Shown one piece after another: positions 34,636 to 62,092 of a stretch of DNA of 64,000 bases (within the stretch, counting starts at the first letter, position 1; every line of letters begins with the position of its first letter). The notes beneath the pieces were generated by a model that saw only the letters and a list, made by a program, of their open reading frames with translations, was not told the origin of the DNA and searched no databases. The stretch is from Kiloniella laminariae. GTDB lineage: Bacteria; Pseudomonadota; Alphaproteobacteria; Kiloniellales; Kiloniellaceae. Made by a program: the position numbers and the translations under genes. Location: contig NZ_JAPWGY010000004.1 in assembly GCF_027214005.1 (NCBI RefSeq), positions 62,001 through 126,000 of the forward strand. The letters are read 5' to 3'.

Positions 34636-34720
34636 GCCCCCGTGGCGGAATTGGTAGACGCGCGTGACTCAAAATCTCGTATCTTCGGATGTGCCTGTTC
34701 GAGTCAGGCCGGGGGCACCA
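34636..34720 (+). tRNA. tRNA-Leu(CAA)
   Basis: 85 nt including an encoded CCA. Acceptor GCCCCCG/CGGGGGC pairs perfectly, D-loop GGAATTGGTAGACGCG, anticodon CAA in ACTCAAAAT, a class II variable arm, and TTCGAGTC in the T-loop. Reads UUG leucine codons. The integrase gene starts 207 bp downstream, so the 3' half of this gene is the likely attachment site, with the prophage restoring its end. Confidence 0.95.
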
Positions 34721-34927: not shown

Positions 34928-35911
34928 ATGGCCACTTTTAAAAAACGTGAAAAAAAATGGGTGGCAGAGGTTCGGATTAAAGGCCGCTACGCTTCTAAGA
35001 CATTTTTGACTAAACTTGAGGCTCAAGCTTGGGCAGTTGAAAAAGAGCAGGATTTTGGACGACAAACAGGACTGGTCCAGGGAAAAACAGCCTCCGACGC
35101 ATTCGATCGTTATGCGAAAGAAATCTCTCCAACCAAAAAAGGGGCTCGTTGGGAAGATATACGTCTTCAAAAACTAAAAAGATCTGGTCTGGCCGATATT
35201 TCACTCCTGCAACTGTCGACCGAGGATATCAATGACTGGATAAAGGAATCCGCAAAGACACTATCTGCTGGCTCCATCCATCGGGAATTCCATCTCATCG
35301 GTTCTGTAATGGAGGCCGCAAGAAAACGTTGGAAATGGATAGAGAAAAATCCCTGTCGCGATGCAGAACTCCCGAAAGAACCACCTCCAAGAGATCGGCG
35401 ATTGTCTGATCAGGAGATCGCAATAATCCTTCGAGCACTAGATTATAAAGAAGGGGAAAAACCTAAAACCTCCCGTCAGAGGCTGGCGATCGCCTTTTTG
35501 TTAGCCATTGAAACCGCGATGCGGCAAGGCGAGATCTGGGGATTAACATGGGATAATGTTTTTCTTGAGGGAAGATACGTTCACCTTCCTGATACAAAGA
35601 ACGGCACTAAAAGAGACGTGCCTTTATCTACGGCAGCTGTTGAGCTGCTTACGCTGTTTTTGCCAACCGAGGATAATAAAGTTTTTAAAGGCAGTCAGGT
35701 TGCGGCGGCCACAATGTTTCGACGGATAATCAATGAGAAATGTAAAATTTTTGATTTGAAATTCCATGACACCAGACATGAAGCTTTGACCAGGTTGGCT
35801 AGAAAAATTGATGTGCTGGATTTGGCGCGTATGGTTGGCCATAAAGATCCCCGGTCGCTGATGATTTATTATAATCCTACGGCTAGTGAGATCGCGCAGC
35901 GCCTTGGCTGA
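34928..35911 (+). CDS. int: Phage tyrosine integrase
   Basis: 327 aa. N-terminal AP2-like DNA-binding segment (KKREKKWVAEVRIKGRYASKTF), SAM-like core-binding domain, catalytic domain with Arg199 (TAMRQGEIWGL), His280 and Arg283 (HDTRHE), His305 (VGHKDP) and Tyr314 or Tyr315 (MIYYNP). All catalytic residues intact. Site-specific recombination between phage and the tRNA-Leu target. The 3' end overlaps the convergent excisionase-like gene by 29 bp, a tight arrangement that may couple their expression by antisense transcription. Confidence 0.95.
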   Translation: MATFKKREKKWVAEVRIKGRYASKTFLTKLEAQAWAVEKEQDFGRQTGLVQGKTASDAFDRYAKEISPTKKGARWEDIRLQKLKRSGLADISLLQLSTEDINDWIKESAKTLSAGSIHREFHLIGSVMEAARKRWKWIEKNPCRDAELPKEPPPRDRRLSDQEIAIILRALDYKEGEKPKTSRQRLAIAFLLAIETAMRQGEIWGLTWDNVFLEGRYVHLPDTKNGTKRDVPLSTAAVELLTLFLPTEDNKVFKGSQVAAATMFRRIINEKCKIFDLKFHDTRHEALTRLARKIDVLDLARMVGHKDPRSLMIYYNPTASEIAQRLG

Positions 35912-39149: not shown

Positions 39150-39413
39150 TCACAGACCTCCCTGGTCGATTTCAGAAGAAAGGGTTTTGAAAAGCACTTC
39201 AGCATCGGGCGGCGGCAGATTGCGCACCGCTTTACTGCTTGCTTCGGCCAGCAGACCGGCAATGCAGCGGAAACGCTCGTTCGCGCCATAGCAGCTATAA
39301 TCAAACTGCCCAGTGGTGGCGTTGTAGGTAATGAGCATGGCCATGCTGGATTTTTTTACATGTGCGCCGTGGTGAGCGGCTTCTGAATAGGGAGGTAGTT
39401 TTATGTTGCTCAT
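39150..39413 (-). CDS. Hypothetical phage protein
   Basis: 87 aa with ITYNATTGQFDYSCYG and FRCIAGLLAEA; no known domain. ATGA overlap with the primase stop. Part of the early operon. Confidence 0.68.
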   Translation of the reverse strand: MSNIKLPPYSEAAHHGAHVKKSSMAMLITYNATTGQFDYSCYGANERFRCIAGLLAEASSKAVRNLPPPDAEVLFKTLSSEIDQGGL

Positions 39414-42034
39414 GATTGTTTCCCCTCGGTTTCAAAAATCCAGCAGCGGATCGATTTGTTCTGTTCAAGCCCTGAATTGACGACCTTGACGTCCTTGAAC
39501 TTGCGCGACTGGCTCTGTTTCAGATGTTTTTTAAGGTCCTGAATAGGCGGGACGGTCTGCTGTTTGATATTGGCCCAGCGGACAAAGTCATTCAGGTTGA
39601 TGGCGATTTCGGTTTTATCGTTCCGGGAATGATTGAGATCTGTTCCGTCCTGCTGCAGATATTCAACGACTTCCCAGAAATCGGCGACGATCGGGTGATC
39701 TGCGGCCAGTGCGGCCTGACGTTTGATCGCGGCATTGGTAAAACAGGAAATGACTGCATCATGTTGGTCATCGGTCAGGCCGATCAATGGTGCCAAGGCA
39801 TCGACCAGGGCCATCATCTGGGAATGGTTTTTTGCGATCCTGTTCGATTTGATTTCGCTAATAGTCGATAGCTGCTGTTCATAGGCCGGGGCTTTCTCTT
39901 TCACGGTGGCCAGAATGCTTTTTTCTGCCAGGCAAGCCATACGAATAAAGTAATTCACATGCTTGACCTCTGTACTTTCAAGTTCCTTGGCAGCTCGATA
40001 ACTGTCTTTGGTCTGGGTCTCGGTGGTGAAGTAAAAATGCACAATGCGGGACATGATCGCTTCTGATGCATTAACTGCGTTGTTCTGGGTTATAACGATC
40101 GATCCCCTGAAGGGTTGGTCGTCGGTATCATTCCCGGAGTTCTTGACTCCGCGTCCACGGTGCGATCGTCCGTTATAGGCGGTTTTCAGTTCATCCCAAT
40201 CGAACTGCCGGACCTTGGATTTATCTTCGCGATCCGATTCAATCAGACTGACCGGAATGTTTGCTCCCTGGGAGAACTTACGGGCCCGGGCCGCGACGGT
40301 TTCCTTATTTGGGTCAAATCCTTCAAAGTCGTCGCGGCCCAGCAGTTTCCATAGAAACTCGATCAGTGTCGATTTACCTGCGCCAGCTGCCCCAACCACC
40401 TCCAGAAAGGGATAGGATTTTTGAATTGCGCGGATCTGTTCGGCAAAGAGACTGCCGAAAAAGAAGGTCAATGCGGCAAAACCTTCTGGTCCAAAGGCGT
40501 TCCAGAGATTGTCTTTCCACTCTGGTTTGTAATCTTCCCTGTTTCCGATCGTGATATGGACCGACTTGTTCATGGTCTTGATCGAATGCTTGCCGATTTC
40601 AAAAAAATCTTCGTCATTGATCGGGTACTCTTTGCCATCGGCTATCGCGACCTGGTCAAAGATATAGGCCCCGTATTCTTTGGCGTAGCCAAGGAAATCA
40701 ACCGTCTCGACAGTTTTGATGTTGCTGAGATGTCGATTAATAATCCAGTCCAACTGGTTGCCTTTTCCGGTAAACAGGGCTCCAGCTGCGATTGATAGAA
40801 GGCGTTTTTTAAACTCTGCCGATGCCGCGACCTGCCCACCAGAAAAGGTGTCTTTGACGACAGTGTTTTTATGCGGGAACTGGACCTTCGCGTAGTACCA
40901 GCTTTCATCAGTAAAACGACTTTTGAGGAAGTAGAGGAATTCAAAGTGACAGTTGGCGATCTGGCTGATAGAGCCGGATTGCCGGGCGGCTTCTTCTTCA
41001 TCCATCGTGTCCCTGGCCTTGTTGAACTTCTCCAGGTCCAGGGCAAACCAGTAATATTTCATCCCGAAATCAACGGCAAAATGGTTCACGCCCATTCTGG
41101 CCCAGATAATCATGGCCTTTTCGAAGGGGCTTTTGGCCATAAGCAGTTCGCCGTGATATTTAAATCCGGTTATCCGGCCCTTTTCATCAAGCCAACCCAA
41201 CTGATAGGCATCATTCCAGTCGAGCTTTTCCTTACCTTTTGGAGGAATGATCGCGGCTTCACAGCAGTAGCCGGCTTCTGTGGCTTTTTTTGCATGGCGA
41301 AGGATGTATTTTTTTCCTGCCTTATCTCCATCCAGAGCCCAGACCAGCTTGACCGATAGAGGGACCAATTTGAGAAATTCCTCGGGATAATTGGTGCAGG
41401 CCAGTATAGCTGCTGCCCGGATGCCTTTCAGGTTTAGAGCAATGGCATCGATACAGCCTTCGACCAGCCACAGCTCGCCGATCTTATCGAGTTCGACCCC
41501 GGGTGGCATCCATGCCATTCCCCGGAATTTTCCGGAAAAATGCGCTTTTTGAGGTTTGACGACCCCGTCTTCAGGGTCTCGGATCTTGAGAACCTCGATA
41601 AAACGTTCCATCGAAATGCTGTTGGCGCGATCGATGTCGAACTTTACTGTGGCAGTTCCCTTGTATTTTCCGATCGCGTTCGGGTTCCAGTATTTTCCCT
41701 GTCGCCACCAGCCCCGTGTTTTCTCCAGAGGAAAGCCCCTGGAGAACTGCATATAGGCGTTGGCGGTTGCGTCGGGGTCTTTTTCCGTCGGTTGGTACCG
41801 CTCGTTAAAGTTTGCGAAGGCGTCAGGGTAAAGTTCCTTAACGTTCGATGACCAGCCACAGTTATTCTCGCGGCCACATTTTACGGTCCAGGGTTCCTTG
41901 GCATGGGCAAAGAATTCCTTCTTGCCGCATCCGGGGCAGACACCGCCCCGGAACCAGTCGCCGACTACCTTGAATTTATAGTCGCGGGCAAGACGTTTGA
42001 TCACGTCCTGCCGCACGTCGTTGGGTATCGACAT
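39410..42034 (-). CDS. Phage DNA primase-helicase
   Basis: 874 aa. N-terminal zinc finger with Cys33, Cys36, Cys53 and Cys59, a Toprim domain (acidic LWLVEGCIDAIAL near residue 190 and WALDGDKAG near 234), and a C-terminal helicase with Walker A GAAGAGKS (about residues 546-553) followed by a Walker-B-like LIESDRED region. This two-domain primase-helicase is typical of P2/P4-like and related phages and starts replication. Likely the main replication enzyme. Six bases from the small gene upstream. Confidence 0.9.
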   Translation of the reverse strand: MSIPNDVRQDVIKRLARDYKFKVVGDWFRGGVCPGCGKKEFFAHAKEPWTVKCGRENNCGWSSNVKELYPDAFANFNERYQPTEKDPDATANAYMQFSRGFPLEKTRGWWRQGKYWNPNAIGKYKGTATVKFDIDRANSISMERFIEVLKIRDPEDGVVKPQKAHFSGKFRGMAWMPPGVELDKIGELWLVEGCIDAIALNLKGIRAAAILACTNYPEEFLKLVPLSVKLVWALDGDKAGKKYILRHAKKATEAGYCCEAAIIPPKGKEKLDWNDAYQLGWLDEKGRITGFKYHGELLMAKSPFEKAMIIWARMGVNHFAVDFGMKYYWFALDLEKFNKARDTMDEEEAARQSGSISQIANCHFEFLYFLKSRFTDESWYYAKVQFPHKNTVVKDTFSGGQVAASAEFKKRLLSIAAGALFTGKGNQLDWIINRHLSNIKTVETVDFLGYAKEYGAYIFDQVAIADGKEYPINDEDFFEIGKHSIKTMNKSVHITIGNREDYKPEWKDNLWNAFGPEGFAALTFFFGSLFAEQIRAIQKSYPFLEVVGAAGAGKSTLIEFLWKLLGRDDFEGFDPNKETVAARARKFSQGANIPVSLIESDREDKSKVRQFDWDELKTAYNGRSHRGRGVKNSGNDTDDQPFRGSIVITQNNAVNASEAIMSRIVHFYFTTETQTKDSYRAAKELESTEVKHVNYFIRMACLAEKSILATVKEKAPAYEQQLSTISEIKSNRIAKNHSQMMALVDALAPLIGLTDDQHDAVISCFTNAAIKRQAALAADHPIVADFWEVVEYLQQDGTDLNHSRNDKTEIAINLNDFVRWANIKQQTVPPIQDLKKHLKQSQSRKFKDVKVVNSGLEQNKSIRCWIFETEGKQS

Positions 42035-43415: not shown

Positions 43416-43718
43416 TTAATCGGAATAGTTCGGCAGTCTTATTTCCGGATCTGGGATCTTTGATCTGTGGATCGTCCGGATCGGGGTGAGCTGTGCGACA
43501 AAGATGTGACCGCATTCCCTGGTACTGCAGAAATAGGTGATTTCGCGAACCAGGTCTGTCTGCTGTTCGGTCTTTATTCCCAGACAGGCCCCCTTGCAGT
43601 GCGGGCACATCATTTTCGGGTAGTGCCCGAAATAATAACTTTTGAACTGTCTATCTGGCTGGGATGGTTCTTCCGGTGTTTTCCCGCCTGAACAGAAAAA
43701 ATCTCTCTGCAGCTGCAT
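43416..43718 (-). CDS. ogr: Ogr/Delta-type late gene activator
   Basis: 100 aa. Zinc-binding pattern CPHC...CSTREC with flanking GACLGIKTEQQTD and later FVAQLTPIRTIHR resembles P2 Ogr, the small zinc-finger activator of P2 late promoters. ATG 43718 has AGGAAG in the end of ner, two bases apart, arguing for coupling and the longer start; ATG 43613 (MMCPHC) is the alternative. Expected to switch on the tail and capsid operons. Confidence 0.85.
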   Translation of the reverse strand: MQLQRDFFCSGGKTPEEPSQPDRQFKSYYFGHYPKMMCPHCKGACLGIKTEQQTDLVREITYFCSTRECGHIFVAQLTPIRTIHRSKIPDPEIRLPNYSD

Positions 43719-43720
43719 GT

Positions 43721-43987
43721 TCAGCTTCCTACTCTGGCCAGTCCGGATTTTGCACGTCCCCGATTGTCGATCGGCGCGCCCCTGCTGTCATAGCGGCTGG
43801 GCCAGATGGCCTGTGGGGCGAGATTAAGGCGGGCAGCAATATGGTCCTGCATTCTGGCCCAAGGCGTCTTCAAAGCCTTGCTGGCAGACCCCGGACCCAT
43901 CCCGCTTTCCCGATCAATATCCGACAGGTTGATGCCCCGGAGCATCAGTTCCGAGCGGATTTTATTGGCTGGCCAGTCAAAAATCAT
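43721..43987 (-). CDS. ner: Ner-like phage regulator
   Basis: 88 aa from ATG 43987 (an in-frame TTG at 43993 is the alternative). Matches the Ner/Nlp winged-HTH family: DWPANKIRSELMLRGINLSDIDRESG, then KALKTPWARMQDHIAARLNL and APQAIWPSRYDSRG. Ner proteins repress early promoters and, against the repressor, shift phage toward lysis. It faces the cI-like gene across three operators. Likely cotranscribed with ogr. Confidence 0.92.
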   Translation of the reverse strand: MIFDWPANKIRSELMLRGINLSDIDRESGMGPGSASKALKTPWARMQDHIAARLNLAPQAIWPSRYDSRGAPIDNRGRAKSGLARVGS

Positions 43988-44000
43988 TGTCAATCCAATG

Positions 44001-44076
44001 TCGATTAAAATCGAGGTGTTGAATAATTAATATCGATTAAAATCGCTATTGCAAGGTAAATATCGATTAAAATCGA
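44001..44076. promoter_or_regulatory. Three dyad operators of the lysis-lysogeny switch
   Basis: TCGATT-AA-AATCGA at 44001-44014 and 44063-44076, and a one-mismatch copy at 44033-44046. Spacing 32 and 30 bp, about three helical turns, so all face the same side. They lie between divergent ner and the repressor gene; a TATAAA -10 candidate for the repressor gene is at 44098-44103. Presumed targets of the repressor, Ner or both. Confidence 0.85.
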
Positions 44077-44152: not shown

Positions 44153-44623
44153 ATGCTGGATCCTGAAAAATACCGGACAGAACTGGGCAAACGCATTCAG
44201 ACAGTTGTCGAGCGCTTTCCCAGCAAATCTGCTGCTGCTCTTGCCGCAGGCGTCACGGTTGAACAGCTCAACAAGTGGTGCCGTGGGACGGTCAAGGTTC
44301 CGGTTGAAGGGCTTTCGGCTCTGGCGGATCTCGGAGGGGTCGGGTTGGGCTGGCTTTGTGGTGATGCGAAAAGATCATCAGACAATGTGATCTATGCCGA
44401 TTTTGACAAACAGCCTGATAACCTGGACAGATCAGTTGTCCAGTCGGTCTTGAAGTCATTGATCATGATTATGCGAGAAGAAGATCTCGAGATGGTCAGT
44501 CCGGACCGTTTTGCAGAACTGGTCATTGCTTTGCACGATTATGTGGTGGAGCAAAATGGCGAAGGGACCATGGATGTTGATTCCATGGCCAATATCATCC
44601 GCCTGGCCGCGCGAGAAAGATAA
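44153..44623 (+). CDS. Phage repressor, cI-like, non-cleavable
   Basis: 156 aa from ATG 44153 (AGGGA upstream; TTG 44150 is unlikely). N-terminal HTH (KSAAALAAGVTVEQLNKWCRGTVKVPVEGLSALAD) and a short helical C-terminus (VQSVLKSLIMIMREEDLEMV). No S24 peptidase domain with Ser/Lys dyad, so RecA-stimulated self-cleavage is not expected, as with the P2 C repressor. Holds the prophage silent through the three operators. Its 3' end overlaps the convergent small ORF by 29 bp. Confidence 0.85.
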   Translation: MLDPEKYRTELGKRIQTVVERFPSKSAAALAAGVTVEQLNKWCRGTVKVPVEGLSALADLGGVGLGWLCGDAKRSSDNVIYADFDKQPDNLDRSVVQSVLKSLIMIMREEDLEMVSPDRFAELVIALHDYVVEQNGEGTMDVDSMANIIRLAARER

Positions 44624-44774
44624 TGGTGATGAGGGACAGACTTGAAAAAGAGAATACACAGAGGATCAGGAGCGCCTGTAGGAAGACATTGTCGACCGGA
44701 ATTTTCCTTTGTCCGGTTTCGTCTTTTGCAAAGGCCTCTTTGACCAGGCTGTGAAGGGTTCTTTTATTGTCCAT
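44595..44774 (-). CDS. Small membrane protein divergent from luxR, candidate antirepressor
   Basis: 59 aa from ATG 44774 (GGTGG upstream; the open frame to 44876 crosses the lux box and is rejected). Basic, soluble N-terminus (MDNKRTLHSLVKEAFAKDE) and one C-terminal transmembrane helix (residues ~29-55). No known family. It is divergent from luxR across the lux-box-like dyad and converges on the repressor gene, overlapping its last 29 bp. Such transcription-factor/small-ORF pairs in other phages encode antirepressors; that role here is inference. Confidence 0.6.
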   Translation of the reverse strand: MDNKRTLHSLVKEAFAKDETGQRKIPVDNVFLQALLILCVFSFSSLSLITIIFLARPGG

Positions 44775-44829: not shown

Positions 44830-44847
44830 ACTATGGTTTTCCATAGT
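44830..44847. promoter_or_regulatory. lux-box-like dyad ACTATGG-TTTT-CCATAGT
   Basis: Perfect 18-bp palindrome with 7-bp arms, matching the CT-N12-AG pattern of LuxR/LasR/TraR-family sites. It lies between the divergent luxR (start 44871 or 44889) and the small ORF (44774). On the small-ORF side a TATAAC -10 candidate (44805-44800) would put the dyad centre near -45, the usual class II activator position; on the luxR side TATAAA (44861-44866) puts it closer to -35. Confidence 0.8.
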
Positions 44848-44870
44848 GAGCAAGGCGAAATATAAAAGTA

Positions 44871-45593
44871 ATGCAACTTGGGGTTATCATGTGGAGCGAT
44901 CTAGAAAAGTTCACGTTAGAATGTAACCGGATCAATGATGTAGACGATTTGTGTCGGGCACTCGAGAGTTTTCTCGGTAAGCTGGGCTTCAATCTCTACG
45001 CCTTCGGTAATCTTTACGGTGATAAAAAATCCCTGATGGAAGACCACGGGCCAGCGATTGCCATGAACCTGCCAGAAAAATGGATCCAGCATTATTTCGA
45101 GCGGGAGTATTTCGACATTGATCCGGTCATTCTGGCGACGCCTTATGTGCAACGCTACCTGAAATGGGATAACCTCCGTCAGTATCAACCGGACTTTTTC
45201 GCTGAAGCGGAACATTATGGGCTGAAGAACGGGATAGCTATCCCCCTTCGTACCTTTGACGGTTGTTATGTTCTTTCGATCATGTCTTCAGAAGTCTTTG
45301 ATATTGGGGAAAGTCTGATCAATGTTCTGGAAATTGCCGCAGGTCATTTTTTCCGCTGCTATCTGTCTGTTCGGAAAATCCGCCATGTACCAGTGAATTT
45401 TTCCGACAAACAGATCCAGGCAATTCAATTGTCCATGCTGGGCAAACGTAATGCGGAGATCGGGACCATTATTGGGAGATCCACCTCTGGTGTAGAGTGG
45501 ATGCTTAAAGATGCCCGGCAGCAGCTGGGCTGTAAAAACCTCCCGGAACTGATTTCCCGTTCAGTACAAAAGGGCATCGTGACCATCGGCTAG
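44871..45593 (+). CDS. luxR: LuxR-family quorum-sensing receptor/regulator
   Basis: 240 aa (234 from ATG 44889, MWSDLEKFTL, which may be the true start). Autoinducer-binding domain residues Trp71, Tyr75, Asp84, Trp99 and Gly121 keep the spacing of TraR/LuxR acyl-homoserine-lactone contacts. C-terminal LuxR HTH from residue 177: Ile185 and Gly191 match the invariant Leu and Gly, but the invariant Glu is Gln181. A complete receptor with a DNA-binding domain, not a fragment. Its gene is followed by a strong terminator and then luxI. Confidence 0.95.
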   Translation: MQLGVIMWSDLEKFTLECNRINDVDDLCRALESFLGKLGFNLYAFGNLYGDKKSLMEDHGPAIAMNLPEKWIQHYFEREYFDIDPVILATPYVQRYLKWDNLRQYQPDFFAEAEHYGLKNGIAIPLRTFDGCYVLSIMSSEVFDIGESLINVLEIAAGHFFRCYLSVRKIRHVPVNFSDKQIQAIQLSMLGKRNAEIGTIIGRSTSGVEWMLKDARQQLGCKNLPELISRSVQKGIVTIG

Positions 45594-45655
45594 GCCAGAC
45601 AGTATCGTGAAAAGCAACCCTTCCTGAATTTTTTCTACCCCAAGTTAGCTATATT

Positions 45656-45689
45656 CTCCGTTAGTCATCTGATTAACGGAGTTTTTTTT
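45656..45689 (+). terminator. Terminator hairpin containing the luxI Shine-Dalgarno
   Basis: CTCCGTTAGTC (45656-45666), loop ATCT, GATTAACGGAG (45671-45681): 11-bp stem with one G-U pair and a tetraloop, then eight T directly before the luxI ATG at 45690. It should end luxR transcripts. The only Shine-Dalgarno for luxI (CGGAG, 8 nt spacing) is the 3' arm. A TATATT -10 candidate at 45650-45655 would start a transcript inside the 5' arm, which would destroy the stem and free the site. Confidence 0.85.
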
Positions 45690-46271
45690 ATGATTTCTCA
45701 CATCCTGAACTGGCAGAATATTCACCTCAACGGCGATCTGTGGCTCCAGCATCACCGCATCCGCTACCAGTCTTTCGTTGGGCGGCAGAACTGGGATGTC
45801 CCGCACCATGACGGTCTGGAGTGGGACCAGTACGACAACCCACGCGCCAGCTATATTCTGATCTCACAACAAGGGCGATGCCTTGCCTGTTGTCGTCTGA
45901 TTTCCTCTGTGCATCCCTATATGATCGAAGAGGTTTTTCCTGATTTCCTGCCCTACGCTCCGCCCAAAAAACCAAAGGTGTGGGAGGCCAGTCGTATTGC
46001 CGTTGATAACAGCCTGGCAGCAGACATCCGAAACCGTGCCCTGTGCCAACTGATCATCGCGATTCAACAGTTTGGGCTCGAAAACGGTATTGAAAAATAT
46101 CTTGGCCTTATGCCAGTGGCCATATTTAACCGGGTGCTGGTTAGAAATGGGGTTTGCCTGAAAATCCACCAGGGAAAAGCGGGGTTGATTGATGGGAAGA
46201 AAACCGCGACCGCTGATATTCTGGTTGACCCGCGGACGGTCGATTACCTTCAATCGCACTTGGTTGCATAA
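45690..46271 (+). CDS. luxI: LuxI-family acyl-homoserine lactone synthase
   Basis: 193 aa, full family length. All ten residues usually invariant in LuxI enzymes are present: Arg25, Phe29, Trp35, Glu44, Asp46, Asp49, Arg69, Phe83, Glu99, Arg102 (in KVWEASRIAV). The enzyme joins S-adenosylmethionine and an acyl-ACP to make an AHL signal. Thr at the position linked to 3-oxo products is not apparent, so an unsubstituted or 3-hydroxy signal is more likely (weak). Encoded in the prophage next to its cognate luxR. Confidence 0.96.
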   Translation: MISHILNWQNIHLNGDLWLQHHRIRYQSFVGRQNWDVPHHDGLEWDQYDNPRASYILISQQGRCLACCRLISSVHPYMIEEVFPDFLPYAPPKKPKVWEASRIAVDNSLAADIRNRALCQLIIAIQQFGLENGIEKYLGLMPVAIFNRVLVRNGVCLKIHQGKAGLIDGKKTATADILVDPRTVDYLQSHLVA

Positions 46272-49165: not shown

Positions 49166-50143
49166 TCAGACCCGTTCTTCCAAATCAATCGCCGTACTCA
49201 ATCCGCTGCTGTCGATCCGGTGGGTGATGTCGCCGCTGATCCACTTGATCGCGTTAATTTCAGCCCGCCAGCCGGAGAGGGTCACGGGCAGGTTGGGGAT
49301 CAGTTCGGGCAAGCCGGGGTTGCGGGAAAAGCGCATGGTCCGTTTGGCCCGCCCGATTTCATTCCATTTTGACTTTGCCGCCGCTGCGGCTTCCGCCTGT
49401 GTCGGAAAGGTCTTTTTCAGGGTTTTGATTGATCCCTCTTCCCCGGCCAGTTCCTCCCGGCTCTGCCCGCTGTTCAGGTCGTGCCAGCGGGCTTTGACCC
49501 CGGTGAATTCGCTTTCGCGATCAGCGTCCATGAATGAATGCCGGCCCGATCCTTCGCGGGTCAGGGAGATGCCAGGCAGGGTGATCCCGCCGACCGTGGT
49601 TTTATGGCCAACGGGAATAAACAGCAGCTTGTCATCCTTGATCGTGGCCAGCGCATCGTATTGTCCCGCCAGCCGGGTGATCAGGTTGGCCCAGCTTTCC
49701 CCGGTCTGGTCAATATGATCGATCACGGTGTTTTTAAGCTTGTCCTCGATCGCCAGTTCCAGATTGTTGGCCCCGGCAATCGCGCCCAAAATCTGGCCCA
49801 GGCTCTGGCCATCAAACGACAGATCGCGTTCCTGTTTCAGTCCGGCAGTAAAGTTGGCCGACCGGGCGCGGATCGTGATGACATCCGGAGGCCCGGTTTC
49901 GCTGATTTCATCTGCCGTGTAGCTGCCCTTGTACACCAGACCGCTCTGTTGAAATCCGATCCAACAGCGCAGCTTGACACCTTTGCGCGGCAGGGCGAAT
50001 TTTCCTGTCGGGTCGGTAAAGCTGATGTCCAGTTGATCGGCTTCGAGATTGCGTTTGTCGGTCAGGGTCAGGTTGACCAGGTTGTCTTTGATCTTGCCGG
50101 TGATGTCGTGTTGATCTGCGGTAATGCGGTAAAGCGGTTTCAC
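49166..50143 (-). CDS. gpD: P2 gpD-like late control/baseplate hub protein
   Basis: 325 aa. Matches the phage late control D family (starts MKPLYRITADQHDITGKIKDNL; IDHIDQTGESWANLITRLAGQYDALA). The gp27-like hub at the centre of the baseplate through which the tail tube passes. Last gene of the leftward tail operon. ATGA overlap with gpU. Ends before the phage small RNA region. Confidence 0.95.
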   Translation of the reverse strand: MKPLYRITADQHDITGKIKDNLVNLTLTDKRNLEADQLDISFTDPTGKFALPRKGVKLRCWIGFQQSGLVYKGSYTADEISETGPPDVITIRARSANFTAGLKQERDLSFDGQSLGQILGAIAGANNLELAIEDKLKNTVIDHIDQTGESWANLITRLAGQYDALATIKDDKLLFIPVGHKTTVGGITLPGISLTREGSGRHSFMDADRESEFTGVKARWHDLNSGQSREELAGEEGSIKTLKKTFPTQAEAAAAAKSKWNEIGRAKRTMRFSRNPGLPELIPNLPVTLSGWRAEINAIKWISGDITHRIDSSGLSTAIDLEERV

Positions 50144-50556
50144 AGACTGTCCTCCAGCTCACCGAGGAGGTCGGGATCCTCTTCGCCGTAGCGTTCCAGG
50201 CTGATCGTGAACTCGATCTTTCGGGGTTGGCCATCACTGGTGAAATGGGTTCGGGTTTCGTCGATCCCTTCAATAATCCACATGCCGAGAACATCGCCAC
50301 GACCGGAAGTCAGGATCCAGGCTTTGCCTTCCGCCATCATCCGCCGCAAGGTATCGAGATTGCGCGGGCTGCCCGCGATGGCCGGGGCGATGATGCCGTC
50401 AATGCGCAGGGTATCTTCGCCGGGCCCGATGTGCTGGGTGGCCGGGCGGACACCAAAACGCTCGGATTTACTCCAGTTTTCCTTGCTGCTGCGACTGGTT
50501 TTCTGCAAAGGCGCCTGATTCTGACTGAAAACAAACAGGCCGAGGGACATCAGCAT
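50140..50556 (-). CDS. gpU: P2 gpU-like tail terminator/assembly protein
   Basis: 138 aa. MLMSLGLFVFSQNQAP, RFGVRPATQHIGPGEDTLRIDGII and the FTISLERYGEEDPDLL ending match P2 gpU, needed to finish the tail. Located between T and D as in P2; 13 bp after the tape measure stop. Confidence 0.95.
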   Translation of the reverse strand: MLMSLGLFVFSQNQAPLQKTSRSSKENWSKSERFGVRPATQHIGPGEDTLRIDGIIAPAIAGSPRNLDTLRRMMAEGKAWILTSGRGDVLGMWIIEGIDETRTHFTSDGQPRKIEFTISLERYGEEDPDLLGELEDSL

Positions 50557-50569
50557 AAAAATCGCTCCT

Positions 50570-52906
50570 TTAATCGTGAAGCTTGGACCTGTGGCGGGCG
50601 GCTTCTTCCTCGTTCATCCGCTCCATCTCCTGACGGACGGCGGTGGCAATGGCCTGGTTATCGGCCCCGGCGGGCGCGTGGATCGCGATTTCATACTTCT
50701 GATTGTTCTGGACCTGCGACGGCCCTGCAATCGCCGGGGTGGCCACGGCTGTGGTGGCAATGGTGGCCGCAGCGATTTTGGTCGACAGCGGCTTGCCTCC
50801 TCCGGCTTCTTCTTCGTCATCGCCGAAAAGGCCGTCAAAAGCCCCGCCGATAGAGCTGCCGATCTTGCTGACCAGCTCGAAGGGGGCCATCAGGCTTTCG
50901 GTAAAGGCTGAAATCAGCGGAGAAATCTTGTCGATGATCGCCTTGATCCATTCCCATCCCCTGGTGAACGCAGCCATTGCCTTGTCCCACAGCGGGCCAA
51001 AGAACCTGCCGAGCGGTTCCCAGTAGGCATAAATAAGGCTGGCGGCGGTGGCGATGCCAAAGATCACCGCCCCGACAGGATTGGCGATCATCGCTGCAGA
51101 CAGGATCCGAAACCCGGTGGCAATCAGGGGAAAGACCGTGGTCGCGATCGATGTCAGAATGCCGCCGAAGGAAAAGATCTTCAGCCCCAGTGCTGCGGCG
51201 GCAAATTTCATCATCACAAAAGGCCCCAAGATCCCCGCGACAGCCAGAGCCAGGCCACCCAGCACCGTAATGCCGATGGCGGCTGCCGCGAAGACCTTGA
51301 AGAGCGTCCCGGCCAGAACCGGGTTGTCCTTGATCCACTGGTTTGTCGTGCGCAAAAGCCCGGTGCCGAGCTGGATCAACTCGCGCAGGGGACTGGTGTT
51401 GGTTTCTGTCAGGGAAATATTGACCGCTTCCCAGGCCGATGAAAAGGCCAGCAGATCCCCGGCGGAATTGTCGCCCATCTGGCTGGCAATGCGTTCGGCC
51501 TCGCCCCCAGACGACTTCAGCACATCGGTGAATTTGGTAATGGCTTCCGATCCGCCCTTGTCGACCAGTTCGGCAAAGGCCGACCCGGCTTCTTCCCCGG
51601 CGATATGCTTGAAAAACCCCAGCCGCACGGCATTGCCCATGCCTTCGGTTTTTTTCGCGACCTGTCCCATGATATCAACCAGCGGCAGCATGTTGCCCTG
51701 GGCATCGGTGATGGAAAGGCCGAGCTGGTCAATGGCGTCCTGGGCCATCTTTGGCGGTGCGGCAAGGCGGGACTGGATTGCCCGCAGCGCCGTTCCAGCC
51801 TGCTGCCCCTGGATCCCGACATTACCCAGCAGTCCGGCCATGGCCGAGGCTTCCTCGATCGAAACCCCGATGGTCCTGGCAATCGGGGCAACGTACTTCA
51901 TGGTATCGCCCAACATGCCCAGATCGACGTTGGAACGGGTAAAGGTCGCCGCCAGCACGTCCGACACCCGTCCCATCTCTCCCGCTTCCAGCCCGAAACC
52001 GGACAGGATGTTGCTGGCGATATCGGCGGTCTGGCCCAGATCCATCGACCCGGCCTTGGCCAGATTGAGCAACCCGGGCATGGTTTTCAGAATGTCACTG
52101 GTCTCAAAGCCTGCCATGGCAAGGAAGCCCATGCCTTCGGCGGCTTGCGATGCAGAAAAGTGGGTGGTCTCCCCCAGTTTTTTCGCGGTGTCGGTGAGCA
52201 GCTTGAAATCTTCAGAGGTTTTATCAACCCGGGCAAGCGCCCCGACCCGGGACATCTGCTCTTCAAAATTGATACCGGGCTGGAGAATGCTGCCAGCCGC
52301 CCCCAGCATGGTCCGCCCGGTGGCAACACCCGCCGCCCCGGCGATGCCGATGTTGGCTTTCTGGGCCATGGATTTATCCATTTGCCAGCGGGCCTTTGCC
52401 AGACGGTTAGCCTTGTTGCGGGCTTTGTCGAGGCTGGCAGAATAGCCATCCAGTTCCTGCCGCGTCTTGCCGATGCGCAGGCCGAGCTTGCGTTGCTCGG
52501 TGGCGACATCGGTGATCGATATGCCCTGTTTGCGCAGTTTCTGACTGACCCCGGCGACCTTCTGCTGTAACCCGGCCTGCTGATCCTTGAGCTTTGACAC
52601 CTGGTTGCGGGCCGCTTCAAAGCTGCTGGCCATGCGCTTGGTGACCTTGTCGGCCCCCGTCATCTCCCGCCCCAGCTGCTGGGCGCGCTCCTGTGCCTGC
52701 TGCAGGGCTGTGGCATTACGCCCCGCCTGGTCTTTCAGGCGATTAAAGGCAACCAGATCCCGGCTGGATCCCTCCAGCTCCTTTAGCCTGTCGGCGGTTT
52801 TGCCGATCGAGGCCTGCAAGCCGCCGGACGCCCCGGTCATCTTTTTGAACGGGCCGCTGATCTTGTCGGCGGATTTAAGGATCAGTTTGAGCGTGAGATC
52901 TTTCAT
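50570..52906 (-). CDS. gpT: Tail tape measure protein (P2 gpT-like)
   Basis: 778 aa. N-terminal coiled coil, then the TP901-type core (FEEQMSRVGALARVDKTSEDFKLL; AAEGMGFLAMAGFETSDIL), membrane-inserting hydrophobic helices around residues 530-640, and a low-complexity C-terminus. Sets tail length; its size predicts a tail of roughly P2 length. ATG 52906 overlaps the stop of the E' frame (ATGA). Confidence 0.96.
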   Translation of the reverse strand: MKDLTLKLILKSADKISGPFKKMTGASGGLQASIGKTADRLKELEGSSRDLVAFNRLKDQAGRNATALQQAQERAQQLGREMTGADKVTKRMASSFEAARNQVSKLKDQQAGLQQKVAGVSQKLRKQGISITDVATEQRKLGLRIGKTRQELDGYSASLDKARNKANRLAKARWQMDKSMAQKANIGIAGAAGVATGRTMLGAAGSILQPGINFEEQMSRVGALARVDKTSEDFKLLTDTAKKLGETTHFSASQAAEGMGFLAMAGFETSDILKTMPGLLNLAKAGSMDLGQTADIASNILSGFGLEAGEMGRVSDVLAATFTRSNVDLGMLGDTMKYVAPIARTIGVSIEEASAMAGLLGNVGIQGQQAGTALRAIQSRLAAPPKMAQDAIDQLGLSITDAQGNMLPLVDIMGQVAKKTEGMGNAVRLGFFKHIAGEEAGSAFAELVDKGGSEAITKFTDVLKSSGGEAERIASQMGDNSAGDLLAFSSAWEAVNISLTETNTSPLRELIQLGTGLLRTTNQWIKDNPVLAGTLFKVFAAAAIGITVLGGLALAVAGILGPFVMMKFAAAALGLKIFSFGGILTSIATTVFPLIATGFRILSAAMIANPVGAVIFGIATAASLIYAYWEPLGRFFGPLWDKAMAAFTRGWEWIKAIIDKISPLISAFTESLMAPFELVSKIGSSIGGAFDGLFGDDEEEAGGGKPLSTKIAAATIATTAVATPAIAGPSQVQNNQKYEIAIHAPAGADNQAIATAVRQEMERMNEEEAARHRSKLHD

Positions 52907-53342
52907 TTTTTCCCGTAAGCCTTTGCCTTGGCGTCGAGGTGATCGACGGCAGCTTGATACCAGTAGGTCAGATCCTCGATCGGCATCCGGTCCATTTCAG
53001 AGGGTGGCCAGCCCTTGAATGCGATGTTGATGACCACCCAGGCAGCGCTGAAATCTTCCGGTACCGGACGGGTTAATCGACGAAAAAACCCTGGACACCA
53101 TGGAAAAGTCTGGTGGTATCGCGGGCCGACAGCGTTTCAAGCTGTGCTGCGGTGATATTCTCGATCGCAATCCGCGGCAACAGTTTCAGCAGATGCTCGA
53201 CCTCCATCTGCGCGATGCCGCTGATCGAAACCCCACGCAGATCGCCTGCGCAGGGCGCACGAAAGGAAATCTCGGTCAGCTTCTTGTCGCCCCAGGCGAT
53301 CGGGTCTTTCAGCTCAATTTTGGTAATTGATTTATCAGGCAT
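52903..53342 (-). CDS. gpE': Tail assembly chaperone fusion gpE-E' (-1 frameshift product)
   Basis: Reading E from 53342 to the heptamer T-TTT-TTC at 53088-53082, then shifting -1, continues without stop for 59 codons to TGA 52905-52903, giving about 146 aa: ...GVQGFF then RRLTRPVPEDFSAAW and DLTYWYQAAVDHL. The E' part fits the GpE family (W-rich, ...AYGKK end). Same gene layout and -1 site as P2 E/E'. Guides tape measure and tube assembly. Confidence 0.88.
53073..53342 (-). CDS. gpE: Tail assembly chaperone gpE
   Basis: 89 aa from ATG 53342 (MPDKSITKIELKDPI; GAGAG upstream). The open frame to 53516 reads through a tandem repeat and is rejected. Homologous to phage tail assembly chaperones of the E family (EISFRAPCAGDLRGV). 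Its end carries the slippery heptamer for the longer product. Confidence 0.92.
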   Translation of the reverse strand: MPDKSITKIELKDPIAWGDKKLTEISFRAPCAGDLRGVSISGIAQMEVEHLLKLLPRIAIENITAAQLETLSARDTTRLFHGVQGFFVD

Positions 53343-53355
53343 AATGGCTCTCTTG

Positions 53356-53404
53356 GGTTGGTGGTTGGTGGTTGGTGGTTGGTGGTTGGTGGTTGGTGGT
53401 TGGT
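53356..53404. repeat. Seven perfect copies of GGTTGGT
   Basis: 49 bp of uninterrupted 7-bp repeat between FII and E. The repeat lies just upstream of the gpE start. The plus strand can form two-tier G-quadruplexes like GGTTGG aptamers; the tail transcript has the C-rich complement. Copy number could vary. Confidence 0.95.
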
Positions 53405-53453
53405 TTGGTTTGATGGTTGAAAGTTTCCCCCCGGAAATCTTCTTGATCCCGGG

Positions 53454-53483
53454 CCTAGATCCCCAGGGACTAGATCCCCAGGG
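53454..53483. repeat. 15-bp tandem duplication at the end of the tail tube gene
   Basis: Minus strand CCCTGGGGATCTAGT then CCCTGGGGATCTAGG (14 of 15 identical). The first unit contains the FII stop TAG; the second lies just after it. A recent slippage duplication is the simplest reading. Confidence 0.9.
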
Positions 53484-53979
53484 CCTGGCGTTCTTCGGCC
53501 AACAGGTCGACGCCATTAACCCGGAAGATCATGTTGATCTGGTCGATATCGATGATTTCGTATCCGTTGACCTCGTATTTGAAGGCAGTCAGGGGAATCA
53601 TGACCTTGAGGCTGTTGGCTTCGCCAGTTTTGGCCGATCCGAAATCCAGTTCCTTCAGGCGTCCGCGAACCGAAATCTCAATCGCGTCGGTGGCGACATC
53701 GCCGGCCTCACTGCGAGCCGCGCCGCGAAACCGCAGCGGAACAGCATCGGCAGCAAAGGCCCCATAATGTTTCAGCAGTTCCTTGTTCCAGCCTTTGAAG
53801 GTGACTTCCATCTCAAGCTTGTCCTGCCCCAGATCCAGCTCGACCGGGCCATGCATGCCGCCAGCGCGATAGTCTTCGGTAATGCGGGTCAGCTTTGGGG
53901 GAGTGATTTCCTCCGCCTCTCCGACATAGGACGTACCGTTAATGAAGATATTAAAATTCTTGAGGGTGGAGGGGATCAT
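53470..53979 (-). CDS. gpFII: Major tail tube protein (P2 gpFII-like)
   Basis: 169 aa. Starts MIPSTLKNFNIFINGTSYVG with the ITEDYRAGGMHGPVEL segment and IDIDQINMIFRVNG ending, all typical of P2 FII. Forms the inner tube of the contractile tail. Follows the sheath gene as in P2. Confidence 0.96.
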   Translation of the reverse strand: MIPSTLKNFNIFINGTSYVGEAEEITPPKLTRITEDYRAGGMHGPVELDLGQDKLEMEVTFKGWNKELLKHYGAFAADAVPLRFRGAARSEAGDVATDAIEISVRGRLKELDFGSAKTGEANSLKVMIPLTAFKYEVNGYEIIDIDQINMIFRVNGVDLLAEERQALGI

Positions 53980-54034
53980 CGTCTCTCTCGCTTATCAATC
54001 GTTGAACGGGTGCTTCAGGCGTTGTGATCTGGGC

Positions 54035-55204
54035 TCAGGCGGCAATCGCCTGGGCGAAATCGACCAGATGGCGATCGGTAATCCGCTGCTGGAAGTTCAG
54101 GTTTTCGAGCGGCGGAACCGGGGTGTAGGCATAATCGACGTAAGCTTTCCCTGAAAACAGCAGCTCTTTCGGATTGTATTTAGGATCAAACCAGGCTTCC
54201 CCGCCGATCAGATAGCCGAGGGTCGAGAGATTGCGCAGTTTGGCATCGACCCCGTTCACAATATCCTTGAACAGCGTCACACTCATGGGTTTGTCGACGG
54301 CCCAGAAGTGGGCATCGGCGATGGTGTCAGCCAGAACCTGGGCGGTGCGGGTGTAGCTTTCAAAGGCAAAGAGCGGATCGGCGGTACAGGTGCGCGATCC
54401 CCAGAAGCGGAAACCCTTGTGATTGATAAGGGTGGTGACCTCGTTTGCGTTCAGCACCCCGGCGTCCGTCTGCGGCGACTGCAAATCAAAGTAGATATCT
54501 TTTGACAAGCCGGTGACGCCATTGACCGGCACGTTGGACAAAGTCTTGTGCCAGCCGATTTCATTGTCGATCTTGGCCCGCAGACCAAGCGCCCGCGCGG
54601 TGGCCCATGCGTTGCGGGTGGTGCTGGTGGTGGTGTCCCAGCTGATAAAATCAGGCCAGATGATCATGACTTCACGCTGGCCAAACTTGTCCCGATAAAC
54701 CACGGCATCATCCCGTGTTTCAGCCCCATGAGCTGCAGCATAGACAAAGGAGCGGGTCTGTTGCGCGATCCCGGCTAGTTCGGCGGTGACAAATTCGTCA
54801 TCCAGCCCGGGGGCGCCGAGAATACGCGGTTGCACTCCCGTCTGGGCCTTTGCCGCTGTGAGGGCCTGCAACCCGGTTTTCATGCCATCGACCGACCCGC
54901 CGATGACATTGGTCCGGGTGGCGGCTTCGTCAGCGCCTTCCTCGACCCGGACAACCACGATCAGCGGGTTGCACTGGTCTTTGATCGCATCAAGCACATA
55001 GGGCAGGGTGCCGTTGGTGCCGGCCTTGTCGATGCCGGAATAGACATCAGTCAGAAGAACCGGACGGTTGAGTGGAAAGGTCTCTACATCGGCGGTCGGT
55101 CCGGTACAGACCACGCCGATCACAGCGGTTTCAATGGTGCGGATCGGGCGAACGCCTTCGTTGATTTCGATAACGCGGACGCCGTGGTGGTAATCAGCTG
55201 GCAT
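54035..55204 (-). CDS. gpFI: Tail sheath protein (P2 gpFI-like)
   Basis: 389 aa. MPADYHHGVRVIEINEG start, RPIRTIETAVIGVVCTGP, and the C-terminal KDIVNGVDAKLRNLSTLGYLIGGEAWFDPKYNP with NLNFQQRITDRHLVDFA. Contractile sheath around the tube. AGGAGG upstream of ATG 55204. Confidence 0.97.
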   Translation of the reverse strand: MPADYHHGVRVIEINEGVRPIRTIETAVIGVVCTGPTADVETFPLNRPVLLTDVYSGIDKAGTNGTLPYVLDAIKDQCNPLIVVVRVEEGADEAATRTNVIGGSVDGMKTGLQALTAAKAQTGVQPRILGAPGLDDEFVTAELAGIAQQTRSFVYAAAHGAETRDDAVVYRDKFGQREVMIIWPDFISWDTTTSTTRNAWATARALGLRAKIDNEIGWHKTLSNVPVNGVTGLSKDIYFDLQSPQTDAGVLNANEVTTLINHKGFRFWGSRTCTADPLFAFESYTRTAQVLADTIADAHFWAVDKPMSVTLFKDIVNGVDAKLRNLSTLGYLIGGEAWFDPKYNPKELLFSGKAYVDYAYTPVPPLENLNFQQRITDRHLVDFAQAIAA

Positions 55205-55264
55205 GGGATGCCTCCTGTGTTTTCAGATAAAAAGAGGGCAGGGGAGAAAGGGCAGAGGATCGGA

Positions 55265-55987
55265 TCATTCACCTGCCCCGGGGTTAGCCGGCAGTTCCGG
55301 CCAGCCTGTGGTGATATCAATGGCCATAACAGCAGCCAGATCAGCTGCAGCTGCAATTTCCTGTTCAAGCGCCGCATAGCGCTGCCAACAGGAAATCCCT
55401 TGCAGCCCCTTGGTATAGGCCATGTCGTTGATCTGATCGGGCGTCAAAGGTGGGGTCCAGCCGTTGTCCCAGGTGCGCCAGGGTTGTTTTGCCTCTTCAG
55501 CAGCAATGCCACGGGCAATCATCTCGTTCAGCAGATCCCGCGACCGTTCCATCTGGGCAACCGAAGAAGACGTCCCCTGCAGGCGATAGGTCACGCCCTC
55601 CAGGCTCCATTCAAAATCACCGTCATCGGCAATGGCATCGCGGCGACTTTTGACCTTGGCCATGACCTTGGCTTGGGCTTCTGCCAGCGAGATCGGGGCT
55701 GTGTTGTAAACTTGCGTCGCGGTGATATCGCTTAATTCAGAGCCGTTATTTTCAACAACAAGCTCTATGCCGGAATCAACAACGTTATCCCATTCCTGAT
55801 CTGGTTCGGGGACGTCAATGACGGGAACAAGATTAAACAGATCGAAGAGATGGTCATCATCCAGATGTTTAACCCCGATGGATCTGTCGGGAAAATCGGG
55901 GTGCGGCAGTGTAGCTGGAAGAATAAAAGGATCCCCTGCCTGGGCACCATCAATGACTTTAATGTAGGTTTTCAATTTTATCTCCAT
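55265..55987 (-). CDS. Tail fibre-associated protein with DUF4376-like domain
   Basis: 240 aa from ATG 55987 (MEIKLKTYIKV), which overlaps the previous stop as TGATG with GGGGA upstream; the longer frame is not used. C-terminal half (LAEAQAKVMAKVKSRRDAIADDGDFEWSL... and LNEMIARGIAAEE) resembles DUF4376 proteins of tail loci, often chaperones or fibre assembly factors. Takes the place of P2 gpG. Exact role unknown. Confidence 0.72.
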   Translation of the reverse strand: MEIKLKTYIKVIDGAQAGDPFILPATLPHPDFPDRSIGVKHLDDDHLFDLFNLVPVIDVPEPDQEWDNVVDSGIELVVENNGSELSDITATQVYNTAPISLAEAQAKVMAKVKSRRDAIADDGDFEWSLEGVTYRLQGTSSSVAQMERSRDLLNEMIARGIAAEEAKQPWRTWDNGWTPPLTPDQINDMAYTKGLQGISCWQRYAALEQEIAAAADLAAVMAIDITTGWPELPANPGAGE

Positions 55988-56697
55988 CAGAATCCCCATT
56001 CGATCAGACAGCATCCGTCCGTGCCGGGCGCCTGGGCCGGGTCACTTATTTCCTTGGGATGGCCGGTTCCTCCTGCGCCATAGGGGACACTATCCAGGAC
56101 TTGACCCTCTCCTCCGGTGCCGCCGTCGGCATGAATGAACGAAAGCCCGACGACATTCCGATGATCGCCGGCTTCGCCAGCCGCCCCGTTCAGGTTGATA
56201 TCGCCACCCGCGGCAATCCCGCCAGCTCCGGCAATCCCGCCGACGCCTGTACTTTGGTATTGAGCCCAGCCACCACCGCCACCTTTGCCAGAATCAGCGG
56301 TCAGCAGATTTCCAAAAGAGCTGTCGATCCCGTCGTTCCCGTCAATGTTCTTCCCCCAGATCAAATGCACATAATTGATGGATGCACCGCCGGCTCCCAC
56401 GACCACGGGAATGATCTGGCCTGGAAAAACCGGGAGGACTTTTTTGACGAAAGCTCCGCCACCGCCGCCACCACCGCCGCCGCCGGAGCTAGAAATATTG
56501 TAATTTGTTGAAGCATTTCCCGTTGTATAGGAACCGTGTGCACCTGCGCCGCCGCCGCCGCCGATAAGCGTGACGCGAACGCTGTAGACACCTTGGGGAA
56601 CAACCCAGTCGGTCTGACCTGGTGTTGTCAGGAAAAGATCACCCGGCGGTGGTGAAAAGGCCGACAGGCTCACAGGCTGGGGTGCCATCAGGGTCAT
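55987..56697 (-). CDS. Glycine-rich tail tip/adhesin-like protein
   Basis: 236 aa, very rich in Gly: a start region LTTPGQTDWVVPQGVYSVRVTLIGGG, a run of ten Gly after SSS, several GGxGG blocks, and a CCLIEWGF C-terminus. Such Gly-rich domains pack as polyglycine-II helices in receptor-binding tips of T-even gp38 type. Likely determines host surface binding. Overlaps both neighbours by a few bases. The central Gly tract is prone to variation. Confidence 0.8.
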   Translation of the reverse strand: MTLMAPQPVSLSAFSPPPGDLFLTTPGQTDWVVPQGVYSVRVTLIGGGGGAGAHGSYTTGNASTNYNISSSGGGGGGGGGGAFVKKVLPVFPGQIIPVVVGAGGASINYVHLIWGKNIDGNDGIDSSFGNLLTADSGKGGGGGWAQYQSTGVGGIAGAGGIAAGGDINLNGAAGEAGDHRNVVGLSFIHADGGTGGEGQVLDSVPYGAGGTGHPKEISDPAQAPGTDGCCLIEWGF

Positions 56698-57575: not shown

Positions 57576-57580
57576 GGGGT

Positions 57581-60139: not shown

Positions 60140-60228
60140 AAAGCCATGATGATTTCGCCTGCGGGGGAAGTCATCTTCAGCGCGGTTGGATTGCGCCAAA
60201 GCAACCCGGAGAAATCCGGGCTGATGGT

Positions 60229-60720: not shown

Positions 60721-60721
60721 G

Positions 60722-62090: not shown

Positions 62091-62092
62091 GA

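Follow-up and report, generated by a model that had tools for sequence, protein, structure and literature searches.

Phage-encoded quorum-sensing switches

The arbitrium system (aimP-aimR) of the SPbeta-group Bacillus phages uses a phage-made peptide signal that reports lysogen density. The switch proposed here would also report lysogen density through a phage-made signal, and differs from arbitrium, whose signal is a peptide and whose receptor is unrelated. Closer relatives are prophages A and B of Phaeobacter inhibens T5, which are reported to carry hth and xre-luxR-luxI, to make distinct AHLs and to promote lysogeny (PMC13345283, bioRxiv July 2026). In the logic described for them, LuxR activates the promoter before xre, and the xre and hth of the two phages have low identity to each other. 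In the same preprint, 53 of 93 Roseobacter prophages are reported to have luxI, modules are described as swapped with cI or BRCT regulators, and the modules are stated to be confined to the Roseobacter clade. Its survey was based on genomes with at least two luxI genes and on clusters of at least three members, and would therefore have missed singletons such as the prophage described here. Among the papers listed by literature searches, titles and abstract openings show no other experimental case of phage luxI. A second group of systems comprises phage transcription factors, including an XRE and LuxR with C4-HSL, that are reported to switch on a counter-oriented small gene, the product of which inactivates a repressor; in these systems the smORF is located upstream of xre and its target is a separate cI (PMC10432266).

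The window analysed here, a 64,000-nucleotide stretch of the Kiloniella laminariae genome, contains most of a prophage with a probable switch of this kind, a variant of the recently described phage quorum switch that differs in host group and phage type and has an extra gene. An earlier note on this DNA knew of no well-characterised phage with both luxI and luxR, a statement overtaken by the two Phaeobacter prophages. As in these (PMC13345283), LuxI and LuxR are encoded together in a prophage, in the same order with a divergent hth and with no recognisable cI, and relatives have the module swapped with cI-type regulators. Unlike in Phages A and B as reported, the host lies outside the Roseobacter clade, the phage is P2-like and sits in a tRNA-Leu gene, a membrane-protein gene (sm) lies between xre and luxR, and the candidate LuxR box is located between sm and luxR. 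The XRE-LuxR-smORF arrangement of Aeromonas phage ARM81ld and of an A. popoffii phage similarly places XRE and LuxR beside a counter-oriented small gene; no luxI was seen beside luxR in ARM81ld, and the Aeromonas system further differs in its reported C4-HSL response, its separate cI target and the position of its small gene upstream of xre (PMC10432266).

Extent and insertion site of the prophage

The prophage is 39.7 kb long and appears complete and P2-like. It starts at position 34703 and extends 10,385 bases past the end of the window, more than the 34.7-49 kb given in the earlier note. Its main features in the window outside the switch are as follows.

34636..34720, + strand: tRNA-Leu (caa), the attachment gene (ARAGORN)
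34703-34720: attL core, 18 bp, within the 3' end of tRNA-Leu (repeat comparison)
34928..35911, + strand: tyrosine integrase (Pfam Phage_integrase, phrog_1; G008 copy 75% identical)
39410..42034, - strand: phage DNA primase (phrog_1139; G008 copy 81% identical)
43416..43718, - strand: Ogr/Delta-type late-gene activator (Pfam Ogr_Delta 7.5e-10, phrog_603)
49166..63962, - strand: tail, baseplate, fibre and holin genes, with head genes following past the window end

The part beyond the window (L025) holds major head, scaffold, terminase and portal genes, and the prophage also encodes a cytosine methylase, a tail sheath and a tape measure protein. Judged by its genes, and with what we take to be the P2 gene order as yardstick, this is a temperate P2-like phage, with integrase, Ogr, contractile tail, capsid, scaffold, terminase, portal and att repeats. 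The 18 bases of the attL core are found again 10,368-10,385 bases beyond the end of the window, and they also flank the prophage on either side in a related genome, G008. A query of the joined flanks was run against nine genus members: G002 is continuous across the join and carries no prophage (86% identity, query positions 87-757 of 757), thus providing an empty site; G000 and G008 carry the prophage, and the six other non-carriers match the left part only.

In G008 (locus L003, a contig of the MAG 'uncultured Rhodospirillales bacterium' CAJXUS01) the prophage occupies the same tRNA with the same gene order and all switch genes. Matches in G008 were found for 33 of the 45 window ORFs compared (E 1e-5; one frame, at 64797, is probably spurious), and prophage frames match four further G008 ORFs. 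Identity between the two prophages is 72% for luxI, 65% for luxR, 57% for xre and 62% for hth, and dN is 0.21 for luxI and 0.26 for luxR, with silent sites saturated. The possibility that luxRI is a separate recent island is not borne out, given its presence in the same place, with similar divergence, in this syntenic prophage; over longer times the pair does look exchangeable from the genes found at this position in related phages. Between luxI and the tail genes lie a DUF4875 protein and a helicase-like protein (46342-47148 and 47602-48735); the DUF4875 gene takes the place directly 3' of luxI where the G008 prophage has an S24 peptidase-like gene (L003 10641-11072).

Organization of the switch region

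Reading from left to right, the region consists of ogr and hth, both on the negative strand, three dyads, xre on the positive strand, sm on the negative strand, a CT-N12-AG dyad, luxR, a hairpin and luxI. It thus has the divergent hth and the xre-luxR-luxI order, plus an extra opposite-strand gene within; since sm is on the opposite strand, xre-luxR-luxI does not form a clean operon. The hth gene, operator array, small ORF and likely LuxR box are parts identified beyond those in the earlier note.

43721..43993, - strand: hth, a winged HTH protein divergent from xre (Pfam HTH_35 8e-16; phrog_769 transcriptional repressor)
44001..44076: three operator-like dyads near TCGATTAAAATCGA, at 44001, 44033 and 44063, between hth and xre
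44153..44623, + strand: xre, HTH repressor-like (HTH_3 20.7 bits, just under the cut-off of 23; alignment)
44595..44774, - strand: sm, 59 aa, with a membrane-like segment at the C-terminus; convergent with xre and divergent from luxR
44830..44847: 18-bp dyad ACTATGGTTTTCCATAGT in the sm-luxR gap, of CT-N12-AG form; candidate LuxR box
44889-45593, + strand: luxR, AHL receptor and activator by sequence; full-length, intact
45656..45681, + strand: hairpin whose 3' arm contains the likely luxI ribosome-binding site, then eight T (RNA folding)
45690-46271, + strand: luxI, AHL synthase by sequence; full-length, intact

The hth product would have a Cro-like role. For dyads resembling TCGATTAAAATCGA, 0.41 matches are expected in the window; the three between hth and xre are spaced 32 and 30 bases apart, with identical spacing in L003, and similar sites occur in the IMG/VR relatives L156 and L091, with one weak site in L097. 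In the predicted structure of XRE the HTH part is confident and the helical tail less sure, and neither Pfam nor this structure gives an S24 domain.

LuxR-type boxes follow the rule CT-N12-AG. Of the two gaps searched (sm-luxR and hth-xre), the one between sm and luxR has the dyad most like a LuxR box; 12, 0 and 5 of 2000 shuffles did as well in the window, L003 and L097, respectively, and the genome has a single exact match to the consensus of this dyad. In the hth-xre gap, no CT-N12-AG dyad was found in the window or L003, and a poor one was found in L097. Matches that tolerate mismatches are not over-represented, with 2 found versus 3.4 expected in the window (up to 3 mismatches) and 12 places versus 83 for a reversed control in the genome (up to 2 mismatches); only the exact, conserved site is counted here.

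The pairing of the luxI hairpin is kept in L003 despite changed sequence and is weaker in L097, with z of -5.9 in the window, -7.6 in L003 and only -1.6 or -0.7 in L097. Hairpins occur in luxI leaders of 3/3 P2-like and 4/6 Roseobacter-type loci versus 4/44 other prophage genes, where the Roseobacter-type count includes L047 and takes L004 from a TTG start. The hairpin was rejected as a phage-specific element, as it also precedes host luxI genes (4 of 12 leaders, including that of this host; the 27 loci L048-L074 contributed 11 leaders, from those in which the match begins with ATG). Hairpins covering the luxI ribosome-binding site are thus seen in several phage and host loci, and a wider translational control of luxI by leader hairpins is possible.

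The LuxI and LuxR proteins

The window LuxI matches Pfam Autoind_synth (2.8e-25, 89 bits; cut-off 24) and the viral protein family phrog_31881, of unknown function (185 bits). In the three LuxIs of the P2-like phage type, R25, F29, W35, E44, D46, D49, R69, F83, E99 and R102 are invariant, which we take to be the ten canonical LuxI residues, and a profile built from the three matches seven solved AHL synthase sequences, including LasI. The ten residues reported in the earlier note are hence all present, and with a domain above cut-off this places the protein, by sequence, with the LuxI AHL synthases.

The receptor, too, is full-length. It matches Autoind_bind (9e-20), it has a PDB sequence match to QscR (residues 18-233 of 240), with RhlR also aligning along most of its length, and W71, Y75, D84 and W99 (W65, Y69, D78 and W93 in the shorter numbering) are present as described. 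The C-terminal GerE domain is detected by Pfam in the LuxR of the IMG/VR homologue, L097, and is below Pfam detection in the window and G008 copies. The predicted structure has a mean pLDDT of 79; against the PDB, RhlR and SdiA come first and QscR ranks 16, with moderate TM-scores of 0.54-0.61 among the top ten. By its autoinducer-binding domain, contact residues and C-terminal HTH, this LuxR is of the AHL receptor type. A start at 44889 is more likely than one at 44871, because the same start is found in G008. An E-to-Q change in the LuxR HTH was discarded as a phage signature, given that the LuxR of this host likewise has Q.

The pair lies, as the earlier note had it, between a repressor, the repressor-like xre, and the P2-like tail genes. 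Its retention in two further phages argues against a chance occurrence in this prophage, and lysogens predicted to encode both synthase and receptor could make and read their own signal.

Host quorum sensing and phylogeny of phage LuxI

A second luxI is located on contig C11 of the same genome, with its own luxR; its product is 29% identical to the phage LuxI and groups with the luxI of G002 in the tree. The notion that a host luxI already explains the pair is not borne out, the host gene being this divergent and on another contig. G008 too has a separate host-type luxI.

Once L097, L170 and L171 are included, the LuxI tree has one clade of the three LuxIs from P2-like phages (96/90) and a second of six Roseobacter-type LuxIs (100/99), the latter counting L047, which has no proven module. 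Forcing all nine phage-type LuxIs together gave a p-AU of 0.043, and an earlier six-row test gave 0.063; the grouping used in the tests was chosen with the first tree already in view, a tree from which 11 short translations had been dropped. An eight-row test (p-AU 9e-5) was set aside, as it omitted L047, which groups firmly with L046. Separate recruitment of luxI in P2-like and Roseobacter-type phages is somewhat favoured by these comparisons.

The family of the Ruegeria genome has a LuxI match in 164 of 345 genomes (E 1e-25); among the 8 of at least 30 such loci with ORFs listed, L046 shows xre-luxR-luxI. L047, whose LuxI groups with L046, has no module within its 3.5 kb.

Related phages and the occupants of the switch position

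The phage DNA primase (39410..42034) served as a probe for related phages. A primase alignment was used to scan IMG/VR, the best 80 of 86 loci being kept, and a LuxI profile run on these gave one match, L097 (IMGVR_UViG_2519899638_000005). Its order of gpD, luxI, luxR, sm, xre, hth, ogr and primase is that of the window, with all five switch parts in the same position (hereafter the slot); its LuxI is 50% and its LuxR 35% identical to those of the window. IMG/VR scans with a single LuxI protein and with a LuxR alignment were empty; alignment scan A2 gave L045, and A6 gave L170, L171 and the L097 contig again.

L091 and L156 have hth, xre and sm in the slot, and no luxR or luxI was found in either. 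The window XRE matches those of L091 and L156 with 127 and 123 bits and that of L097 with 107 bits. For the 52 of the best 80 of 86 contigs in which gpD is visible (the 28 others were left out), the slot was labelled repressor in 39, other in 7, xre-type in 5 and QS in 1; three of the five xre-type labels are weak (under 32 bits) and were left out of the count, and the repressor label derives from a loose profile that grew from 2 to 60 hits in four rounds. By Pfam, 39 of 43 repressor-labelled ORFs match HTH_31 and 18 match Peptidase_S24, a set that includes the XRE of L097 itself and L157, which is outside the slot. Among 387 genomes of the class, 5 have the primase at E 1e-60, this genome included. 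The slot of G394 holds a 303-aa HTH-S24 repressor and that of G182 a near-identical one by eye, whereas the ORF in the slot of G263 matches no Pfam family; the contig of G121 is not long enough to show the slot.

A profile of xre matched this genome only in a sample of 386 class genomes (E 1e-18), and in IMG/VR three contigs that had all been found already, which makes the switch of the window look rare. Because the slot in related phages also holds hth-xre-sm alone or CI/XRE repressors, luxRI appears to be an exchangeable addition to a switch already in place, one that some phages would have gained rather than others lost. The slot states (CI/S24 or other XRE; hth-xre-sm; hth-xre-sm with luxRI) suggest a change from a DNA-damage or plain switch to a social one.

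Small opposite-strand ORFs

The sm gene overlaps the end of xre and lies upstream of luxR across the conserved CT-N12-AG dyad. Counterparts occur in L003, L097, L091 and L156, so that sm stands next to this type of xre in 5 of 5 copies, each with a membrane-like segment (hydropathy 2.5-2.8). Third codon positions vary most between L091 and L156, and dN (0.27) is below dS (0.84), which supports sm as coding; the window and L003 proteins share 13 of 52 residues, with silent sites saturated. A role for sm as an XRE mimic in the P2-like family found no support, as it has no similarity to XRE.

The Roseobacter-type modules (L004 from Ruegeria; L045, L170 and L171 from IMG/VR) have hth, xre, a small opposite-strand ORF, luxR and luxI in the same order as the window. 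Such an ORF lies between xre and luxR in 4 of the 5 modules examined; in the fifth, L046, none was found by the rule used.

L004 9091-9201, - strand: small ORF resembling the XRE C-terminus
L045 7084-7221, - strand: small ORF resembling the XRE C-terminus
L170 7052-7216, - strand: small ORF resembling the XRE C-terminus
L171 7063-7239, - strand: small ORF resembling the XRE C-terminus

These ORFs are short and partly conserved (16/35 and 13/45 identical residues in two pairs). A profile of the four, searched against the ORFs of 60 loci (L042 being the same locus as L004), matches besides itself only XRE proteins of such modules, at 8.6e-5 for L171 and 0.0043 for L004; values for L170, L045 and L046 (0.23-2.3) are individually not significant. 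An hhalign comparison places the small ORF on 26 positions close to the C-terminal end of XRE (probability 86%, E 5e-6). These ORFs lack a membrane segment and resemble the XRE C-terminus, the opposite of the window sm on both counts. The other switch proteins also differ: the L004 LuxI is 33% identical to that of the window and falls in the separate supported clade, the window hth has no match in L004 and looks unrelated, and the window XRE, which has no BLAST match there and whose profile aligns weakly over the HTH (probability 56%), is at most distantly related. Term searches of the main text of PMC13345283 found no small ORF.

Proposed switch and alternative explanations

We consider it probable that this temperate P2-like phage feeds an AHL signal of its own making into its lysis-lysogeny switch, which would extend phage-made AHL signalling beyond the Roseobacter clade and into a P2-like phage. 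In the mechanism that we infer, hth and xre would encode opposed Cro/CI-like regulators acting on the operator array between them, and XRE, having no S24 domain, would not be cleavable through RecA. LuxI would make AHL in lysogens, and LuxR with AHL would act at the dyad at 44830-44847, raising luxR-luxI expression and setting the divergent sm; lysogen density would thereby feed into the xre/hth decision. Counted in favour of such a self-signalling switch are the full-length genes, the complete-looking prophage, the empty site, the synteny with G008, the five parts in L097, the Phaeobacter-like order, and the fact that the same slot in relatives holds an HTH-S24 repressor or hth-xre-sm without luxRI. 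Counted against it are switch parts that differ from the Roseobacter ones, the opposite-strand sm that breaks up a clean xre-luxR-luxI operon, the lack of a good box between hth and xre, unlike the reported LuxR activation before xre in Phaeobacter, and the thought that luxRI could be cargo altering only host behaviour. If the switch is self-signalling, its direction is somewhat better read as holding lysogeny when lysogens are common, by analogy with both Phaeobacter phages; this precedent favours lysogeny, whereas the divergent sm and the absence of a good hth-xre box favour an output through sm, making induction through sm the main alternative.

In such an induction, LuxR with the AHL of the phage would activate sm, and the small membrane protein would disable XRE, for instance by holding it at the membrane, resulting in lysis at high lysogen density. 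The position of sm fits this arrangement, since it diverges from luxR with the more LuxR-box-like dyad of the two gaps in between and stands next to this xre in 5 of 5 copies, and there is the reported precedent of XRE and LuxR with C4-HSL driving a repressor-inactivating small gene (PMC10432266). We nevertheless think it unlikely: lysis amid cells that are already infected looks disadvantageous, the small genes described in that paper lie upstream of xre and target a separate cI, sm has a membrane segment, sm has no similarity to its XRE, and in L091 it directly follows gpD with no luxR and is thus drivable in another way. That luxRI is instead lysogenic-conversion cargo, changing host group behaviour with no part in the phage switch, seems more improbable still, even though hth-xre-sm exists without luxRI in L091 and L156, the DUF4875 and helicase-like genes beside luxI may be cargo, and the host's own luxI could be influenced; in each of the three phages found, luxRI is immediately next to the switch, and in Phaeobacter genes in this order have been tested as a switch (PMC13345283). 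Decay of the prophage or of the pair into a non-functional remnant is very improbable. Although 12 of the 45 window ORFs compared have no match in G008 (E 1e-5), phages usually have variable genes, and against decay stand the open frames, the conserved catalytic residues, the low dN of luxI and luxR with saturated silent sites, and the presence of integrase, primase, head, tail and holin genes.

Returning to the self-signalling switch, the small opposite-strand ORF seen in both module groups is a candidate for its output. A doubtful but possible extension is that the phage modules of the two LuxI clades share this fifth gene as the real output of LuxR, a quorum-controlled XRE antirepressor; the P2-like phages would have it as a membrane protein, the Roseobacter-type modules as a mimic of the XRE C-terminus; both would then be self-signalling modules of the TF-smORF kind, assembled more than once.

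Other luxI loci

A tblastn search of INPHARED for luxI gave matches in 5 of 50,697 records at E 1e-3. The surroundings were viewed for four, the fifth (CAKLQF020000013) sharing a phage name with one of these, and all four were rejected because, from a reading of the neighbouring genes, they look like bacterial DNA: Pseudomonas phage Y5 has LuxR/LuxI amid housekeeping-like genes, Acinetobacter MD-2021a has metabolic neighbours, and MT835580 and MT837523 have chromosome- and plasmid-like neighbours. Public phage records with bacterial chromosome- or plasmid-like DNA around a luxI match are OQ572407, CAKLQH020000009, MT835580 and MT837523.

Loci with luxRI by a contractile-injection-like cluster, in G037 and in L172, L173 and L175, were set aside by eye as host loci. 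In G037 (L029 8148-9859, contig C579) luxR-luxI adjoins a cluster that by eye resembles a contractile injection system, with sheath-like, tube-like and AAA ATPase-like ORFs; the LuxI at this locus, 36% identical to that of the window, is its best non-prophage match among the LuxIs compared.
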